Both the position numbers and the translations under genes were made by a program. Of a stretch of 64,000 nt of DNA, positions 21,875-28,867 are shown one piece after another. This DNA comes from Brachyspira pilosicoli (lineage in GTDB: Bacteria; Spirochaetota; Brachyspiria; Brachyspirales; Brachyspiraceae), in NCBI RefSeq assembly GCF_036997485.1, contig NZ_JAWLPU010000001.1, positions 186,001-250,000 of the forward strand, in the 5' to 3' direction. Position 1 is the stretch's first letter. Each line of letters starts with the position of its first letter. Below the pieces are notes generated by a model that saw only the letters and a list, made by a program, of their open reading frames with translations, was not told where the DNA came from and ran no database searches.

Positions 21875-22747
21875 TTAAATATCAATACCCAAAAATTGTT
21901 TTACAAGCATTCCCACAAAGAAACTTATAGCAGCAACTGTTAAACTAACTCCCGCCATCTCAAAAAATCTCTCTCTAAAAGAAATACTCTTAGCCACAGC
22001 AATATAGAAAGTAAAACAAAATATTATAGTTATAACAATAATAAGCATGGCAATAAGAGCATAAATAGAAACACTAAATACTAAATAAGGCATTATTAGA
22101 AGACTTACAGTAATTAAATACATTACACCAGTATAAGAACAAGACTTAAAAGCATTTTTACTGCCCTCAGCTTTAGCAGATAAATACTCGGAAGAAGCCA
22201 TAGAAAGTGTAGCAGATATCCCCGTAATTATTCCAGATAAAGCTACTAATCTATTATCTTGCAAAGCAAAAGTAAGCCCAGCCAAAGTTCCGCTAATTTC
22301 AACTAAAGCATCACTCAAACCCAAAACCATAGAACCAACATATTTAAGTCTATCCTCATCTAAAATAGATATAAGTTTATTTTCATGCTCATATTCTTCA
22401 AAGGCAATAGTCTTAGCATCAGGAACTTCATCAACTATCTTAGAATATATATACTCAGCACTCTTCTCTCCAGATTCCATTATTTTAATAACAAATGTAT
22501 AGCCAAATATAAAACTTAAAATAAAAAACTTGAAAACTTTGAATTTTTGAGGTTTTAATTTTACATTAGTATATTTTTCTAATACTTTAGCATGACCCAA
22601 TTCTTCTCTAGCAATATTTAAAAGTATTTTTTTATCATCTTCTTTTTTTACGAACTTTGCAAGATTGAAATATATTGCATGTTCTGTAATCTCATTTTGC
22701 TGTAATTCCAATAAAAACTTAATTGTTTCTTTTGATATTGGTTTCAT
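21875..22747 (-). CDS. Rubrerythrin / VIT1-CCC1 fusion, probable iron or manganese transporter
   Basis: 290 residues. The first 130 are a ferritin-like four-helix domain with diiron ligands in NEITEHAIYF, REELGHAKVLEKY and EEYEHENKL. The rest is a VIT1/CCC1 membrane domain: DALVEISGTLAGLTFAL, then SSEYLSAKAEGSKNAF and three or four further helices. Such fusions sense or oxidise Fe2+ in the cytoplasm and export iron or manganese, giving resistance to metal and peroxide stress. AGGA precedes the ATG. Confidence 0.82.
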   Translation of the reverse strand: MKPISKETIKFLLELQQNEITEHAIYFNLAKFVKKEDDKKILLNIAREELGHAKVLEKYTNVKLKPQKFKVFKFFILSFIFGYTFVIKIMESGEKSAEYIYSKIVDEVPDAKTIAFEEYEHENKLISILDEDRLKYVGSMVLGLSDALVEISGTLAGLTFALQDNRLVALSGIITGISATLSMASSEYLSAKAEGSKNAFKSCSYTGVMYLITVSLLIMPYLVFSVSIYALIAMLIIVITIIFCFTFYIAVAKSISFRERFFEMAGVSLTVAAISFFVGMLVKQFLGIDI

Positions 22748-22836
22748 AATATTAATCCTAAATATTAATTAGTTAATAGTACAATGAAAATTAATTAATT
22801 GCAAAAATTAACATTATTTTATATTAAATTTAGATA

Positions 22837-22864
22837 TTGATTTTCTATTAAATATTTATAAAAT
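22837..22864 (+). promoter_or_regulatory. Possible promoter of the amidohydrolase operon
   Basis: TTGATT (22837-22842) and TAAAAT (22859-22864) with a 16-base spacer, 44 bases before the ATG at 22909; AAAGGAG precedes that start. Confidence 0.4.
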
Positions 22865-22908
22865 ATTATATATAGTATTTTATATATTTTAAAGGAGTAT
22901 AATTCAAA

Positions 22909-24063
22909 ATGGATAACAAAAAACTCAATGACATAATTATTAACATGAGGAGAGAATTACACCAAATACCAGAGATTGGTACAGATTTGCCTCAAACAAA
23001 AAAATATGTCCTTGATAAATTAAAATCATTAGGACTTGAGGTAAAAGAATGTTCTATAGACTCTGGAATAGTATGCGATATAGGAAATGCTAATAGCGGT
23101 AATATAGTTGGTATTAGGGCAGATATGGACGGCTTACCTATAGTTGAAGAAACTGGTGTTGAATATGCTTCAAAAAATGGTAATATGCATGCTTGCGGAC
23201 ATGATGCTCATACTGCTTGTTTATTAGGAGCTGCTCATTATTTATTAGAAAATAAAGACAGATTAAAAAATGGTGCTGTAAGATTAGTTTTTCAAACTGC
23301 TGAAGAGATATCTAAAGGAGCAAATAATTTAATAAAAGATGGTTTATTAGATGGTGTTAGTGCTATAGTTGGTACACATATAGGTACTATAGCTACAGAC
23401 GTACCTAGCGGAGAGTTTGTTCTTCAAGAAGGCCCATTAATGGCATCTAATGATAAATTTGTTATTAAGGTTATAGGAAAAGGTTCTCATGGTGCTTATC
23501 CTCATTCTGGAGTAGACCCTGTATTAACTGCAAGTCAAATAATACAAGGTATATATAATATAAAAAGCAGAGAAATAATAGCTACTGACCCTACAGTAAT
23601 ATCTATATGTATTGTAAACGGCGGAAGTCAATATAATATTATACCTTCAGAAGTAAATATAGAAGGTACTTTTAGAACATTTAGCGAAGAAAACAGAAAA
23701 TTCATAGGAAACAGAATAAAAGAGATATCAGAGTCTATTGCTATAGCTAATAGAGCAAAAGCAGAAGTAAATATGGAATGGGGCTGTCCTCCTGTTATTA
23801 ATGACGGCAAAATAGCTAATGAATTATCAGAAGTATGTAAGGAATTAGGATTTAAAAAGTCAGCACCTTTTACTCCTTCTATGGGCGGAGAAGATTTTGC
23901 TGAATATCAACATAAAATGCCTGGAGTATTTATTTTCTTCTCTACTATGACAGAAAAAAATATTCCGCATCATAATAGTAAATTTGAGATAGATGAATCA
24001 AAATTATATCAGCCTAGTATATTAATGAGCGAATGGGCAATTAAGCGTTTAGGAGGTAAATAA
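22909..24063 (+). CDS. M20 family amidohydrolase (hippurate hydrolase-like)
   Basis: 384 residues, usual for M20D aminoacylases that cut N-acyl or N-aryl groups from amino acids. Metal ligands are in HACGHDAHTACLLG, TAEEISKGA, the HGAYPHSGVDP of the dimerisation lid and SMGGEDFAEY. AAAGGAG gives a strong ribosome binding site. The next gene starts on the last base of its TAA stop, and a third follows 3 bases later, so the enzyme is made with two membrane proteins. Cytoplasmic; the acyl-amino acid or short peptide substrate is presumably delivered by those proteins. Confidence 0.82.
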   Translation: MDNKKLNDIIINMRRELHQIPEIGTDLPQTKKYVLDKLKSLGLEVKECSIDSGIVCDIGNANSGNIVGIRADMDGLPIVEETGVEYASKNGNMHACGHDAHTACLLGAAHYLLENKDRLKNGAVRLVFQTAEEISKGANNLIKDGLLDGVSAIVGTHIGTIATDVPSGEFVLQEGPLMASNDKFVIKVIGKGSHGAYPHSGVDPVLTASQIIQGIYNIKSREIIATDPTVISICIVNGGSQYNIIPSEVNIEGTFRTFSEENRKFIGNRIKEISESIAIANRAKAEVNMEWGCPPVINDGKIANELSEVCKELGFKKSAPFTPSMGGEDFAEYQHKMPGVFIFFSTMTEKNIPHHNSKFEIDESKLYQPSILMSEWAIKRLGGK

Positions 24064-24782
24064 TGAATGAAGAAATTTTAAAATTAGCCAATCAATTAAT
24101 ATTATGGCCATTATGTGCTGTTGTTGTTATTATAAGTTTGGTACAAGCTATATTATATACAAGACTTGCTAATAAAACAGCAAAAACTTTGGGCATTACA
24201 AGTGAGACTTGCCAAAAAGCTTTTAAAGCTGGTTTAATAACTGCAATAGGACCTGCTATATCTGGTTTTATAGTAATGGTAGGAATGATATCTGTTATAG
24301 GAGCACCTATGAGCTGGATGAGACTTTCTATTATTGGTGCTGCTACTACAGAGATGGCTGGAGCACAATTTGGTGCTGAAGCTATGGGGGTACAATTCGG
24401 AGGACCTGATTATAATGAGGTTGCTTTGGTTGTATCTTGGATTACTATGGCTGCTAATGGATGCGGTTGGTTGATATCTGCATCAATTATGGGAAGTAAA
24501 TTAGAGAAATTAAGAACAAAAATTTCCGGAGGTAATCAGGCTGGTTTAGCTTTACTTTCTGCTGCTTCTATGGTTGCGGTATTTGGTAATTTGGCTTCTG
24601 GTTATTTACCTAAAATAGATACTGCTGCTTCTGTTTTAGCTGCTGCTTTAACTATGTTTATATTAGTGAAGTTTGTGTCAAAAACTAAGATTGGACTTAA
24701 AATTCGTGAATACAATTTGGGTATTGCAATGATAGTTGGTATGGCTGTTGCTTTAATTGTAAAAATATCTATTGGAGGTTAA
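24063..24782 (+). CDS. DUF5058-type membrane protein, probable transporter subunit
   Basis: 239 residues with about six hydrophobic segments. It resembles the DUF5058 family (WPLCAVVVIISLVQAILYTR, GPAISGFIVMVGMISVIGAP, SIIGAATTEMAGAQFGAEAMG). Its ATG overlaps the amidohydrolase stop by one base, so translation is coupled. A glycine-rich, small-residue core in the membrane fits a transporter. Pairing with the next gene suggests a heteromeric carrier for the amidohydrolase substrate; this is inference from the operon. Confidence 0.65.
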   Translation: MNEEILKLANQLILWPLCAVVVIISLVQAILYTRLANKTAKTLGITSETCQKAFKAGLITAIGPAISGFIVMVGMISVIGAPMSWMRLSIIGAATTEMAGAQFGAEAMGVQFGGPDYNEVALVVSWITMAANGCGWLISASIMGSKLEKLRTKISGGNQAGLALLSAASMVAVFGNLASGYLPKIDTAASVLAAALTMFILVKFVSKTKIGLKIREYNLGIAMIVGMAVALIVKISIGG

Positions 24783-24785
24783 TAT

Positions 24786-25454
24786 ATGACTGATAAAGAA
24801 TTTCAAAAATTATGGAATGATCCTGTTAATTTAATCGGAAGGGTAACATTATTATCTGCTGTTGTTGCTTCATTTTTCCCTGTTGTATATTTGATGATTA
24901 GCCATAAAATATTTCCGCCTATAGATGTTGTTATAAAAGCTTGGATATTAGTTGCTTCTTCTTATGGGGTTATGTATGTATTAGAGCCTTTGAGCTATTA
25001 TCCTGTTTTAGGTTTGGCTGGTTCTTACATGAACTTCCTTTCTGGAAATGGCGGTAATATGAGAGTGCCTGCCGCTGCTTGTGCATTAGATGTTACAGAT
25101 ACTCCAGAAGGAACTCGTAATGTAGAAATTATTTCTTCTTTGGGAATAGCTGGTTCAATTATCACTAACCTATTCTTTGTTACATTGGCTGCTGTATTAG
25201 GAGCTACTATTCTTAATGTAGTGCCTCCTATAATTGCTGAAGCTTTTAAATCTTATGCTGTGCCTGCTATATTTGGTGCTGTATTGATGCAATTTAGCAT
25301 GAAGTATCCTAAATTATTAGTATTTGGTTTAGGAATACCTTTAGCTTGTAAATTATTAATACCTGCTATGCCTGCTTTTCTTATCACATTATCAGGTTTA
25401 GTGATTACAATCATCGCTTCAAAAATATTATACAAAGTAAAAGTTGAAAATTAA
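24786..25454 (+). CDS. Membrane protein, partner of the DUF5058 protein
   Basis: 222 residues, about five or six membrane segments, with a conserved-looking loop GNGGNMRVPAAACALDVTD in the middle. It starts 3 bases after the preceding stop with GGAGG directly upstream. I cannot name a characterised family. Size, spacing and membrane character suggest it forms one complex with the previous protein. Confidence 0.6.
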   Translation: MTDKEFQKLWNDPVNLIGRVTLLSAVVASFFPVVYLMISHKIFPPIDVVIKAWILVASSYGVMYVLEPLSYYPVLGLAGSYMNFLSGNGGNMRVPAAACALDVTDTPEGTRNVEIISSLGIAGSIITNLFFVTLAAVLGATILNVVPPIIAEAFKSYAVPAIFGAVLMQFSMKYPKLLVFGLGIPLACKLLIPAMPAFLITLSGLVITIIASKILYKVKVEN

Positions 25455-25473
25455 TTGTATTAAAAAATAAAAA

Positions 25474-25507
25474 AGATGTTGGAATAAAAAATCCAGCATC
25501 TTTTTTT
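25474..25507 (+). terminator. Bidirectional rho-independent terminator
   Basis: AGATGTTGGA (25474-25483) pairs with TCCAGCATCT (25492-25501), one G-U, followed by a run of T; A-runs on the other side make it work for the convergent flbB-like gene too. Confidence 0.8.
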
Positions 25508-25530
25508 ATATATTAATTAATAATTTCTAA

Positions 25531-26247
25531 TTAAGCTCCCATATCCATTATGCCGTCATTAAGCATTTCATTATTATCTGGAGTATATGACGGGAAATCA
25601 TTAGGAGATGAAGGCACTGTATTGTTATTAGGATTAGTGCGGGCTTCATACTTCTCTAATATTCTTGCTGCAACTGTAGGGTCCATCAAACTAAGCAAAT
25701 AAGAAGTAGTACTGTTTCTTCCTTCTGCTGCAGCTATAGAATCCATTTCTACTAATACATCAATAATTAAATCATCAGAACCATTAGCTGCTAATTGATT
25801 AAGTAAGGCAACAGAGTTTTGAGGAGGCATGCTGTTAATTTTATTAGCCAAATCTGTAAGTACTAATTGATATTGAGCAGATTCGTCCATAGTAGCCTGA
25901 TAATTAGACCAAGCATTTAATAAGTTTTGTCTGTCTTGTTCTATTAATTCAGATTGCGAATTTAATTCTATAGCCCTGCTAGCTATTAAAGCTTCTTGTG
26001 CTTGTATATCTTTTTCTCTTAAGTTAAAAGATTCTCTCATCTTAGCAAGATCATCTCTAGCCAAAAGAGTCATATCCTCAACTCTTGGCTTTTGTGTAAA
26101 TCTAGTTAAAAAAGAAGGCACATTAGGAGCTATTTTGGTACGCATTAAAGTATAATAATTAACAACTCCAAATATATCAAACATATAAAGTAATGCTATA
26201 AAAGCTATTAAATTAACTACAGTCAATATTGCTATTTTAAATTTCAT
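25531..26247 (-). CDS. flbB: FlbB-like periplasmic flagellar collar protein
   Basis: 238 residues from ATG 26247, which has AGGTG 9 bases upstream; the in-frame ATG two codons earlier is too close to it. One membrane helix near the N-terminus is followed by a long coiled coil (about 70-140, Glu/Gln/Ala rich, with REKDIQAQEALIASRA). The C-terminal domain resembles the MgtE N-domain (LLSLMDPTVAARILEKYEA), then a Pro/Asn tail. This is the layout of spirochaete FlbB, which sits at the base of the periplasmic flagellar collar. It stands alone here, so the call rests on architecture. Confidence 0.65.
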   Translation of the reverse strand: MKFKIAILTVVNLIAFIALLYMFDIFGVVNYYTLMRTKIAPNVPSFLTRFTQKPRVEDMTLLARDDLAKMRESFNLREKDIQAQEALIASRAIELNSQSELIEQDRQNLLNAWSNYQATMDESAQYQLVLTDLANKINSMPPQNSVALLNQLAANGSDDLIIDVLVEMDSIAAAEGRNSTTSYLLSLMDPTVAARILEKYEARTNPNNNTVPSSPNDFPSYTPDNNEMLNDGIMDMGA

Positions 26248-26384: not shown

Positions 26385-27551
26385 TTAAGTAGTTCTTTTT
26401 AAAAGAATCATACTAACATCATCTTTTAAAGGTTCTTTTGTGAAAGATTTTATCTCAGTAATAATTTTTTCTTTAATATCATCAACATTGCTTTTAACAT
26501 TTTTAGAAAATATTTGCCTTAGATGTTCATCACCAAACATATTATTATTATCATCAAATATTTCATAAGCTCCATCTGTAAAAACAAATAAAGTATCGTT
26601 TCTGTTCAATTGAATTTCAATCTCTGTATATTCACTCTCATCAATCATTCCAATTAAAGTACCATCTATATCTATAGTATGTATTTCATCTTCACTGTTT
26701 GAATAATAAATAGGTTTTGGAGAGCCGGCAGAAGAACATAATAATTTACCTGTTTCATTATTGTAAAGAGCATAAAATACACATGCAAATAAGTTTTTAT
26801 CAAAGCCCTCTTCTATAAAAAATTTATTAAGCTTATCTAAAAAAACAGCAGGAGAAGTGTTTTTATCATCTATAATAGCATGCGAATCAAAAAAAGATTT
26901 TATTAAAATAGTAAGCATGCTGGCAGCAACCCCATGCCCAGACACATCAGCAAGAAGTATAGCATAATATCCATCATTAATAAGCTTTATTCCGCTATAA
27001 TCACCAGAAACCTCATTAGGCGCATAATGGTATATAGATATTTCATTTTTAGGTATAGAAGTATTCCCATAAGAAAGTATAGTTTTTTGCAATTTGGCAG
27101 CATATTCTATATCTCTTTTTAATATATCCATATACATCATATTAGACTCTATCGCTTTTTTAAGTCTAATATAAGATTTCATTTTAGAAAGAAATAAATC
27201 CGTATCAATAGACTTCTCAAAAAATCCATCAGCACCGCAGTCAAATGCTTTAAGGGATTCTGTTTTATTATCAGAGGCAGTTAAAAAAAGTACGGCTATG
27301 TTTTTTAATAAATTATCAGATTTTATATATCCAGCTAATCTGCAAGCTCCTGCATTAGGAAGCATATAATCAACTAATATACAATCTGGTATTTTTTCAT
27401 AAGTCATATTAATAGCCTCTTCATAAGACAAAGCTATATAACATAAATAATTATTTTTTTTTAAGAATTTTTGAATAAACTTAGCATAATCAATATTAGT
27501 ATCAACTATTAATACTTTCTCTGTTAAAATGTTATTTTTTGTAATAGCCAT
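26385..27551 (-). CDS. Response regulator with PP2C-type (SpoIIE/RsbU) phosphatase output
   Basis: 388 residues. An N-terminal receiver domain has the phosphorylatable Asp in CILVDYMLPNAG and LFLTAS with a late FFEKSI. A short linker helix leads to a PP2C-like phosphatase domain with SGDYSG, LLADVSGHGVAASML, VFTDGAYEIFDD and KDDVSMILL; the usual GDYYD is GDYSG here. Such proteins dephosphorylate anti-sigma-factor antagonists. The start overlaps the rodA stop by one base, so it is the last gene of the mrdA-rodA unit. No anti-sigma partner is nearby. Confidence 0.82.
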   Translation of the reverse strand: MAITKNNILTEKVLIVDTNIDYAKFIQKFLKKNNYLCYIALSYEEAINMTYEKIPDCILVDYMLPNAGACRLAGYIKSDNLLKNIAVLFLTASDNKTESLKAFDCGADGFFEKSIDTDLFLSKMKSYIRLKKAIESNMMYMDILKRDIEYAAKLQKTILSYGNTSIPKNEISIYHYAPNEVSGDYSGIKLINDGYYAILLADVSGHGVAASMLTILIKSFFDSHAIIDDKNTSPAVFLDKLNKFFIEEGFDKNLFACVFYALYNNETGKLLCSSAGSPKPIYYSNSEDEIHTIDIDGTLIGMIDESEYTEIEIQLNRNDTLFVFTDGAYEIFDDNNNMFGDEHLRQIFSKNVKSNVDDIKEKIITEIKSFTKEPLKDDVSMILLKRTT

Positions 27552-28867
27552 TAATGTACATACCTTCTAGCTTCAACATTAAATATAAGCCCAATAGATA
27601 TAGAAAAAGTTAAAATTGAAGAGCCTCCGCTGCTTACAAAAGGCAAAGTTAAACCCGTAATAGGCATCATACCAACCACCATCCCAATATTAATAAGCAC
27701 GTGGCATAAAAACATTGCTATTACTCCCGATATAATCAATGCCCCAAGTCTATCTTTAGCAAAATAAGCAACCGTAATACCCCTCACAAATATAGTAGCA
27801 TAAGCTAATACAACTAAAGCACTTCCTATAAATCCCCACTCCTCACAAATATTAGAGAAAATAAAGTCATTTACCTGCTGAGGTATAAAGTTTAATTGAG
27901 ACTGACTTCCATTAAGAAAGCCCTCCCCAAAAAGCCCGCCGCTTCCAACAGCAATGAGAGATTGAATGATGTTGTACCCCGAACTAAGCCTTGTAAGCTC
28001 TGGGTTCATAAATACTAATAATCTCTCTTTTTGATAAGTTTTTAATCCTATATCAAAAGTTAAAGCAGCACACATACTTAAAAATAAAACAAAAAAAGAA
28101 AATGAAAATAATTCTACATATTTATTATTCATATAGAAGTTTATTGTGAGAAGAAGTATTGATATAAACAAAAATCCTCCGGCAATATAACCTATATAAA
28201 GTCTTTGTGATAAGAAGTTAAAGAGAATATTATTTATATCATCAGACATTCTCTTATATTCCAAAAACATAGGTATAGATAAGCCTATAACCCCTATACT
28301 TAATAATGATATAATATATCTTAAAGGCACCCCTCCAACAAATAGCATAACAAATACTATAAAACAATATACCAAAACAGTACCCAAATCCGGCTGCATT
28401 AAAACTAACCCAATAGGTATAGAAATAAAAATACCAGCTATTAAAAAATATTTTTCCTGTTTTATTTTATCACCTATTTGGTCCAAATAACCAGCCAAAA
28501 ATATAATCATTACTATCTTACCAAACTCTGAAGGCTGCATACCAAAAAGCCAACTACTACTTCCGTTTATTGTAGTACCTACACCAGGAATAAGTACAAG
28601 TATTAAAACAATAAGCATCGGTATATATAAAGACATTCTGTGCTCTGCAAGTTTTGTGTAGTTGATAAACATAGTAATACACATAATAACAAGACCAACA
28701 ACAGAGAAAAATATATATTTTAAAAATATCCAACTCGTTTTACCAGAATCTGGAGAATATGTGGAAGAATATACTGCTATAGCACCTGCTACCATAAGAA
28801 AAAGTATAGAAATAAGTATTCTCCAATCAAATACGAATAATCTTCTTAATTCTTTTTTTTCATTCAT
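27551..28867 (-). CDS. rodA: Rod-shape peptidoglycan glycosyltransferase RodA
   Basis: 438 residues with about ten membrane helices of the SEDS family. Diagnostic stretches are MQPDLGTVLVYCFIVF (catalytic Asp), GSSSWLFGMQPSEFGK, FNGSQSQLNFIPQQVNDFIF-type loop and the C-terminal GLTLPFVSSGGSSIL. With PBP2 it polymerises lateral-wall peptidoglycan. Its ATG overlaps the end of mrdA by 8 bases. SEDS homologues FtsW and SpoVE differ in context; the PBP2 neighbour decides for RodA. Confidence 0.92.
   Translation of the reverse strand: MNEKKELRRLFVFDWRILISILFLMVAGAIAVYSSTYSPDSGKTSWIFLKYIFFSVVGLVIMCITMFINYTKLAEHRMSLYIPMLIVLILVLIPGVGTTINGSSSWLFGMQPSEFGKIVMIIFLAGYLDQIGDKIKQEKYFLIAGIFISIPIGLVLMQPDLGTVLVYCFIVFVMLFVGGVPLRYIISLLSIGVIGLSIPMFLEYKRMSDDINNILFNFLSQRLYIGYIAGGFLFISILLLTINFYMNNKYVELFSFSFFVLFLSMCAALTFDIGLKTYQKERLLVFMNPELTRLSSGYNIIQSLIAVGSGGLFGEGFLNGSQSQLNFIPQQVNDFIFSNICEEWGFIGSALVVLAYATIFVRGITVAYFAKDRLGALIISGVIAMFLCHVLINIGMVVGMMPITGLTLPFVSSGGSSILTFSISIGLIFNVEARRYVH

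Follow-up and report, generated by a model that had tools for sequence, protein, structure and literature searches.

In a stretch of 64,000 nucleotides from Brachyspira pilosicoli (the window), we identified a three-gene operon that encodes an M20D amidohydrolase, a DUF5058 membrane protein, and a partner membrane protein of an unnamed family. On balance, we slightly favor the reading that the DUF5058 protein and its partner form an importer of two subunits that takes up amide-bonded amino acids, with the M20D enzyme in the cytoplasm and with N-acyl-glycine, hippurate in particular, as the leading substrate in Brachyspira.

An operon of an M20D amidohydrolase and two membrane proteins

All three open reading frames lie on the + strand: the M20D amidohydrolase (384 aa) at 22909-24063, the DUF5058 membrane protein (239 aa) at 24063-24782, and the partner membrane protein (222 aa) at 24786-25454. 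Upstream of the first ATG, AAAGGAG at 22893-22899 (+) resembles a ribosome-binding site. An initial annotation of this DNA had described the genes as tightly packed and as having their own terminator. The coordinates match that packing exactly, with a 1-base overlap between the M20 and DUF5058 genes and a 3-base gap between DUF5058 and its partner, and a terminator-like hairpin with a T-rich tail closes the operon at 25469-25506 (+). This hairpin is the sole terminator-like match in 22600-25700, where shuffled sequence yields 1.0 by chance; it is credible as a terminator because the same hairpin is found directly after M20 in another Brachyspira genome, G151 (locus L214), in which the two membrane protein genes are missing. 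The three-gene operon M20D-DUF5058-partner is confirmed, and there is no ATPase among its genes. DUF5058 and partner are each present as a single copy (E <= 0.001) in the window genome, a member of the B. pilosicoli group with 2,718,741 bases in 10 contigs, whose nearest named relative is T010 (99% over DUF5058).

Two other genes of the window were also observed. The divergent neighbor at 21875-22747 (-) encodes a VIT1 domain with a weak rubrerythrin-like N-terminus; its product recalls an iron exporter, yet scores far under the MbfA cut-off. The homologue of the FtsW/RodA-like gene at 27551-28867 is disrupted in B. pilosicoli P43/6/78 (G132; L260 and L261; G132:C1:1359439-1360753), possibly through a sequencing error.

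The first gene product matches PF01546 (E=1.3e-36) and belongs to the M20D subfamily, scoring 333 bits against TIGR01891 (cut-off 153.75). It contains MHACGHDAHTA, FQTAEE, VGTHIG, MGGEDF, and PHHNSKF, which we take to be the metal and catalytic motifs of M20 enzymes; the M20 motif columns are intact, and no N-terminal hydrophobic segment is present. Among solved structures, YxeP (1ysj, E=2.4e-80) and ILL2 (1xmb) are closest, and the protein is accordingly like the M20D group of YxeP, ILL2, and AgaA, to which the hippurate hydrolase HipO presumably also belongs. The window enzyme itself is a putative hippurate hydrolase, an assignment drawn from the phenotype correlation described below. Assignment as the carboxypeptidase CpsA (NF040868) was rejected, as the score of 355.6 bits is under the equivalog cut-off of 500.

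Sequence and predicted structure of the membrane proteins

The second gene product is a clear member of DUF5058 (PF16481; E=1.7e-57, 195 bits against a cut-off of 28.2, profile positions 1-222 of 222), a family with no assigned function. Its partner matched no Pfam or NCBIfam family, and a Pfam scan of 63 partner relatives gave no convincing match (best E 0.0021). The family calls made initially, an M20 aminoacylase, a DUF5058-type protein, and a second, unnamed membrane protein, agree with these matches. An AbgT-type transporter was excluded, since neither membrane protein matches the AbgT family in Pfam, as was an ABC peptide importer: the operon has no ATPase, and across loci ABC genes are only scattered, distant neighbors. 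A literature search returned no paper naming DUF5058, PF16481, or a hippurate transporter.

Alignment of 62 DUF5058 sequences revealed invariant P64, G80, P82, R87, I91, G92, and E97. In 63 aligned partner sequences, G18, Y81, G87, P95, and S124 are invariant, and E67, N88, N91, and R93 are nearly so. Confident AlphaFold2 models of the two proteins (pLDDT 85.9 for DUF5058 and 87.8 for the partner; pTM 0.72 each) are all-helical with no soluble domain and, by our reading, have roughly 6-8 membrane spans each. Helices break near G80, P82, W85, M86, R87, L88, I91, G92, and E97 in the DUF5058 model and near Y81, G87, N88, N91, R93, and P95 in the partner model.

Neither Foldseek (best E 2.5 and 1.1) nor VIA (best Z 5.3 with rmsd 5.4 over 89 aligned residues, and 4.5 with rmsd 3.0 over 55) found a convincing solved structural relative of either subunit in the PDB, from which a new fold does not follow. 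A profile search of PDB sequences gave nothing for DUF5058 and, for the partner, only MerF at chance level (E 0.36). Homology between the two subunits was not detected by profile comparison (P 0.059), and no fused DUF5058-partner protein was present among the open reading frames of the scanned loci. Helix order and lengths look alike in the two models, suggesting the idea that DUF5058 and its partner may be structurally equivalent subunits.

DUF5058 and its partner occur together

Plasmids, GTDB contigs, and sampled genomes together yielded 140 DUF5058 genes, or 126 after removal of redundancy at 97%; 3 of these had too little downstream DNA and were left out, leaving 123 testable. The partner directly follows DUF5058 in 121 of the 123 genes (85 of 87 at 80% redundancy); in L102 and L211, where it does not, the DUF5058 gene is itself broken. 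Among 247 Spirochaetota genomes, 19 contain DUF5058 over its cut-off and the same 19 match the partner profile strongly, with one extra weak match per family (G104, G011). DUF5058 and its partner are thus an almost obligate pair. The initial annotation had held that its importer would be called into question by membrane proteins occurring mostly apart or beside unrelated enzymes, and the first of these is not the case. Pair-bearing taxa include Spirochaetota, Firmicutes, Synergistota, Proteobacteria, Actinobacteria, and haloarchaea. The spread is patchy: DUF5058 passes its cut-off in 11 of 145 haloarchaeal-class genomes and in 15 of 196 genomes from a clostridial class.

Some arrangements depart from the usual one. 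In the Treponema-like genome G126 (L195, L212), DUF5058 and partner are at distant places on the contig, and in its relatives L196, L197, and L199 the pair is next to gyrB-like genes with no hydrolase. A Lachnospiraceae genome (G248, the genome of L059) has ten DUF5058 genes with differing neighbors, as if specialized per conjugate. At L097:10001-20511, five long M20 genes in tandem come after two DUF5058/partner pairs.

Hydrolases of several folds adjoin the pair

Short flanks removed a further 17 of the 123 loci from the hydrolase count. Of the remaining 106, 95 encode an amide hydrolase no more than 3 kb from the pair (69 of 77 at 80% redundancy); in a range of 3.5 kb, 137 of 141 hydrolases share the strand of the pair. 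Neighbor labels came from home-made profiles in which subtypes are lumped; for example, the 'DAMID' gene of L053 is Xaa-Pro dipeptidase-like, and the 'ARGE' gene of L174 is PepT-like. Representatives scored over cut-off as long M20D (TIGR01891), hydantoinase/carbamoylase amidase, ArgE/DapE deacylase, C45 acyltransferase/hydrolase, PatB C-S lyase, and PepT-like enzymes, while PRK08262-like M20 and PRK09061-type D-aminoacylase-like representatives were below it; short M20D, S58, and M19 dipeptidase were further families seen. The 11 loci with no hydrolase, which count against an importer working with such an enzyme, comprise the three gyrB-adjacent, Treponema-like loci, two degraded plasmid copies (L029, L035), and L084, L088, L093 (first copy), L094, L104, and L209.

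As to enzymes unrelated to one another, the concern raised initially was partly borne out: the folds do vary, but the hydrolysis of an amide bond in N-acyl, N-carbamoyl, or peptidyl amino acids is common to them. Because these families are unrelated by descent, what they share is the reaction rather than ancestry, and the substrate class of the pair should therefore be amino acids held in an amide bond, with their carboxylate free. The variety of folds around one reaction strengthens the importer idea of the initial annotation, which these results support.

The M20, carbamoylase, C45, M19, D-aminoacylase-like, and long M20D neighbors have no hydrophobic N-terminus, except for one in L038 with an over-long start. 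Since most neighbor hydrolases share this lack, their substrate must enter the cell first. Neighbors labeled ArgE or PRK08262 differ, as 11 of 23 have a signal- or anchor-like N-terminus. This is at odds with cleavage after uptake, and in these cases it is uncertain whether import or cleavage comes first.

Several loci have less usual company. In L210, L178, L179, L181, and L182, a PatB-type C-S lyase is close to the pair, joined in several of them by an M19 dipeptidase, an arrangement that looks suited to uptake and degradation of a cysteinyl dipeptide, for example Cys-Gly. In L077, L085, and L087, the pair is followed by a gene resembling the C45 family of autoproteolytic acyltransferases/hydrolases, an unusual partner for a transporter. 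A link to purines or allantoin, raised by PucR regulators and class V aminotransferases near the pair, was dropped when the two aminotransferases tested proved to be cysteine desulfurase types, although the carbamoylase and PucR neighbors are real.

Glycine genes near the pair

On annotated haloarchaeal plasmids, gcvH-gcvPA-gcvPB-lpdA, gcvT, or serine hydroxymethyltransferase is next to the trio. At least 2 gcv genes were present in the fetched flanks of 14 of 106 loci (12 haloarchaeal, 1 Dethiobacter, 1 spirochaete), or 4 of 77 at 80% redundancy, the haloarchaeal cases being related by descent. The Dethiobacter locus (L043) combines the pair with M20, carbamoylase, and gcvT-H-PA-PB, all confirmed by Pfam or NCBIfam; in the spirochaete locus (L207), which has gcvT-H-PA-PB, lpd, pair, and M20, all but gcvT were confirmed in this way.

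Genes of PF03458 ('Glycine transporter'), the family of the haloarchaeal gene labeled 'TRIC' by the trio, occur in 9 loci, every one haloarchaeal. We take PF03458 and UPF0126 to be the same family. A passage of PMC12173739 reports an important role of UPF0126 genes in the use of glycine by 11 bacteria. These predicted glycine transporters adjoin the pair in haloarchaea, but they are a family separate from it. Given the gcv and glycine-transporter neighbors, N-acyl-glycine is our best guess for the M20 branch; with glycine-cleavage genes flanking the pair in three phyla, it is probably the substrate.

Within Brachyspira, GDC-P was found in 0 of 26 genomes, which, like the mostly haloarchaeal spread of the gcv neighbors, counts against the glycine link. 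Glycine reductase B is present in 13 of the 26, including that of the window, and a strict link between it and the pair is excluded by the pair-bearing genomes G132 and G103, from which it is absent.

The pair and the hippurate phenotype of Brachyspira

The pair is present in 7 of 26 Brachyspira genomes (that of the window, B. pilosicoli T010, PC5538III-hc, and P43/6/78, B. alvinipulli ATCC 51933, B. catarrhinii, and one uncultured) and absent from 19, while M20 relatives are present in all 26. B. hyodysenteriae ATCC 27164 (G078), B. intermedia PWS/A (G098), B. murdochii DSM 12563 (G113), B. hampsonii NSH-16 (G118), and B. suanatina AN4859/03 (G072) have no pair and keep an M20 relative (72-74% identity). 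In G072, G098, and G078, this solo M20 adjoins NifU/NifS-like genes, the same ones that lie ahead of M20-DUF5058-partner in B. alvinipulli. In G151, which falls in the pilosicoli group in a single-gene tree, M20 is followed after ~20 bases by the terminator region found after the partner in the window, and tblastn detected no remnant of the pair at this clean empty site. In B. alvinipulli, G171, and G093 (probably B. innocens), some M20 genes, either second copies or solo, are interrupted by in-frame stops (L222, L223, L232).

Table 3 of PMC3857821 gives B. pilosicoli and B. alvinipulli as hippurate-positive and B. hyodysenteriae, B. suanatina, B. intermedia, B. innocens, B. murdochii, and B. 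hampsonii as negative. Negative entries for individual strains are found for B78T and AN4859/03 (PMC4603578) and for 56-150T (PMC3035287), and for B. intermedia as a species in PMC3163572. As far as these entries go, presence of the pair fits the species table for the named genomes with the exception of PC5538III: 2 of 2 positive lineages have the pair vs 0 of 5 negative species, a comparison of weak statistics in which the positives are species-level statements separate from the sequenced strains. In the exception, the assembly PC5538III-hc carries the operon despite a negative entry for the PC5538III culture, which held two isolates (PMC6779451, Table 2). Also at odds with the match, the same source gives B. 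aalborgi W1 as weakly positive, and a title in the reference list of PMC3857821 indicates that hippurate-negative B. pilosicoli exist. Among the titles returned by our literature search, none gave a hippurate result for B. catarrhinii or named a Brachyspira hippurate hydrolase gene.

The single-gene tree separates the two lineages that have both the pair and a positive hippurate result, and the M20 tree unites their paired M20s (0.948). This grouping is as expected if the cassette moves as a unit, modest support that comes from single genes. Paired Brachyspira M20s have MGGEDF, whereas most solo ones, and that of G151, which has a long branch in the M20 tree, have MAGEDF. A change in the enzyme could thus be an alternative cause of the phenotype, or a consequence of importer loss. 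The other two M20 relatives in the window genome (~36% identical) do not explain the trait, because they have counterparts in negative species.

It is possible, though we consider it rather doubtful, that the pair imports some other N-acyl amino acid or a dipeptide, and that the match with the phenotype is coincidental or comes from the M20 sequence. The motif difference between solo and paired M20s and the negative entry for PC5538III are compatible with this, as are the dipeptidases (M19, PepT-like, Xaa-Pro dipeptidase-like) and carbamoylases beside other pairs. The glycine-cleavage and glycine-transporter genes near pairs argue for a glycine conjugate instead, as does the agreement with the species table outside PC5538III. 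We propose, then, that the pair imports hippurate in Brachyspira; importer and enzyme together may account for a positive hippurate test in some Brachyspira species and not in others.

A proposed importer of conjugated amino acids

In the mechanism that we favor, DUF5058 and its partner would form one carrier, a heterodimer, acting as a secondary importer rather than an ATP-driven one. Its substrates would be amino acids in N-acyl, N-carbamoyl, or peptidyl linkage whose carboxylate is free; these would enter intact, and the hydrolase of the same operon would split the amide bond inside the cell. In Brachyspira, with its cytoplasmic M20D, the import would most likely be of N-acyl-glycine, and cleavage of hippurate (benzoyl-glycine), the leading candidate, would yield glycine and benzoate. 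The conserved arginines of both subunits may bind the carboxylate and the conserved glutamates may couple an ion; we infer ion coupling because no ATPase is encoded with the pair.

Movement in the other direction, in which the pair exports or exchanges a product such as free glycine, seems improbable to us. The feature common to the loci is indeed a hydrolase that releases an amino acid, and the PRK08262-type neighbors look membrane-anchored, so their products could arise outside; but most neighbor hydrolases look cytoplasmic, hence their substrate must be brought in, and several haloarchaeal loci already have a separate PF03458 glycine transporter. Models without a solved structural match and a family that no paper in our search names would allow the pair to act instead in the membrane as a sensor or as an assembly factor of the hydrolase. 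We consider this very unlikely: both proteins are polytopic, have helix breaks near invariant G, P, R, and E residues, and lack a soluble domain, and one kind of pair is common to hydrolases of many unrelated folds.

The arrangement of the proposed importer recalls two systems of E. coli. AbgT, with AbgA/AbgB, serves the use of p-aminobenzoyl-glutamate, and AbgT is one large protein (PF03806). The likeness lies in a dedicated transporter encoded with M20D hydrolases and in cytoplasmic cleavage of an acyl amino acid; the difference lies in a single large protein there versus two of ~230 aa here, with no match to the AbgT family. In IadA-YjiG-YjiH, two small membrane proteins adjoin a dipeptide-type metallohydrolase, a similar layout, but the window proteins have no Pfam match to the YjiG and YjiH families.

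More broadly, and as a tentative suggestion, the pair may represent a new and widespread class of bacterial and archaeal heterodimeric secondary transporters for conjugated amino acids, with two structurally equivalent subunits freely combined with a fitting hydrolase, such that the Brachyspira hippurate test would report gain or loss of the importer rather than of the enzyme. If the importer reading is correct, it would assign a function to DUF5058, so far a domain without one, and to its unnamed companion family, from spirochaetes to haloarchaea, and would add a two-subunit type of transporter for which no structural match was found. The adjoining hydrolase would then predict the substrate class of each copy, for example, of all ten that a single Lachnospiraceae genome carries. 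With an importer assigned to hippurate, a co-metabolite of host and microbes, its use by gut bacteria would become testable from sequence. For Brachyspira, the pair would provide the genetic basis of a trait that has long been used to separate its species.
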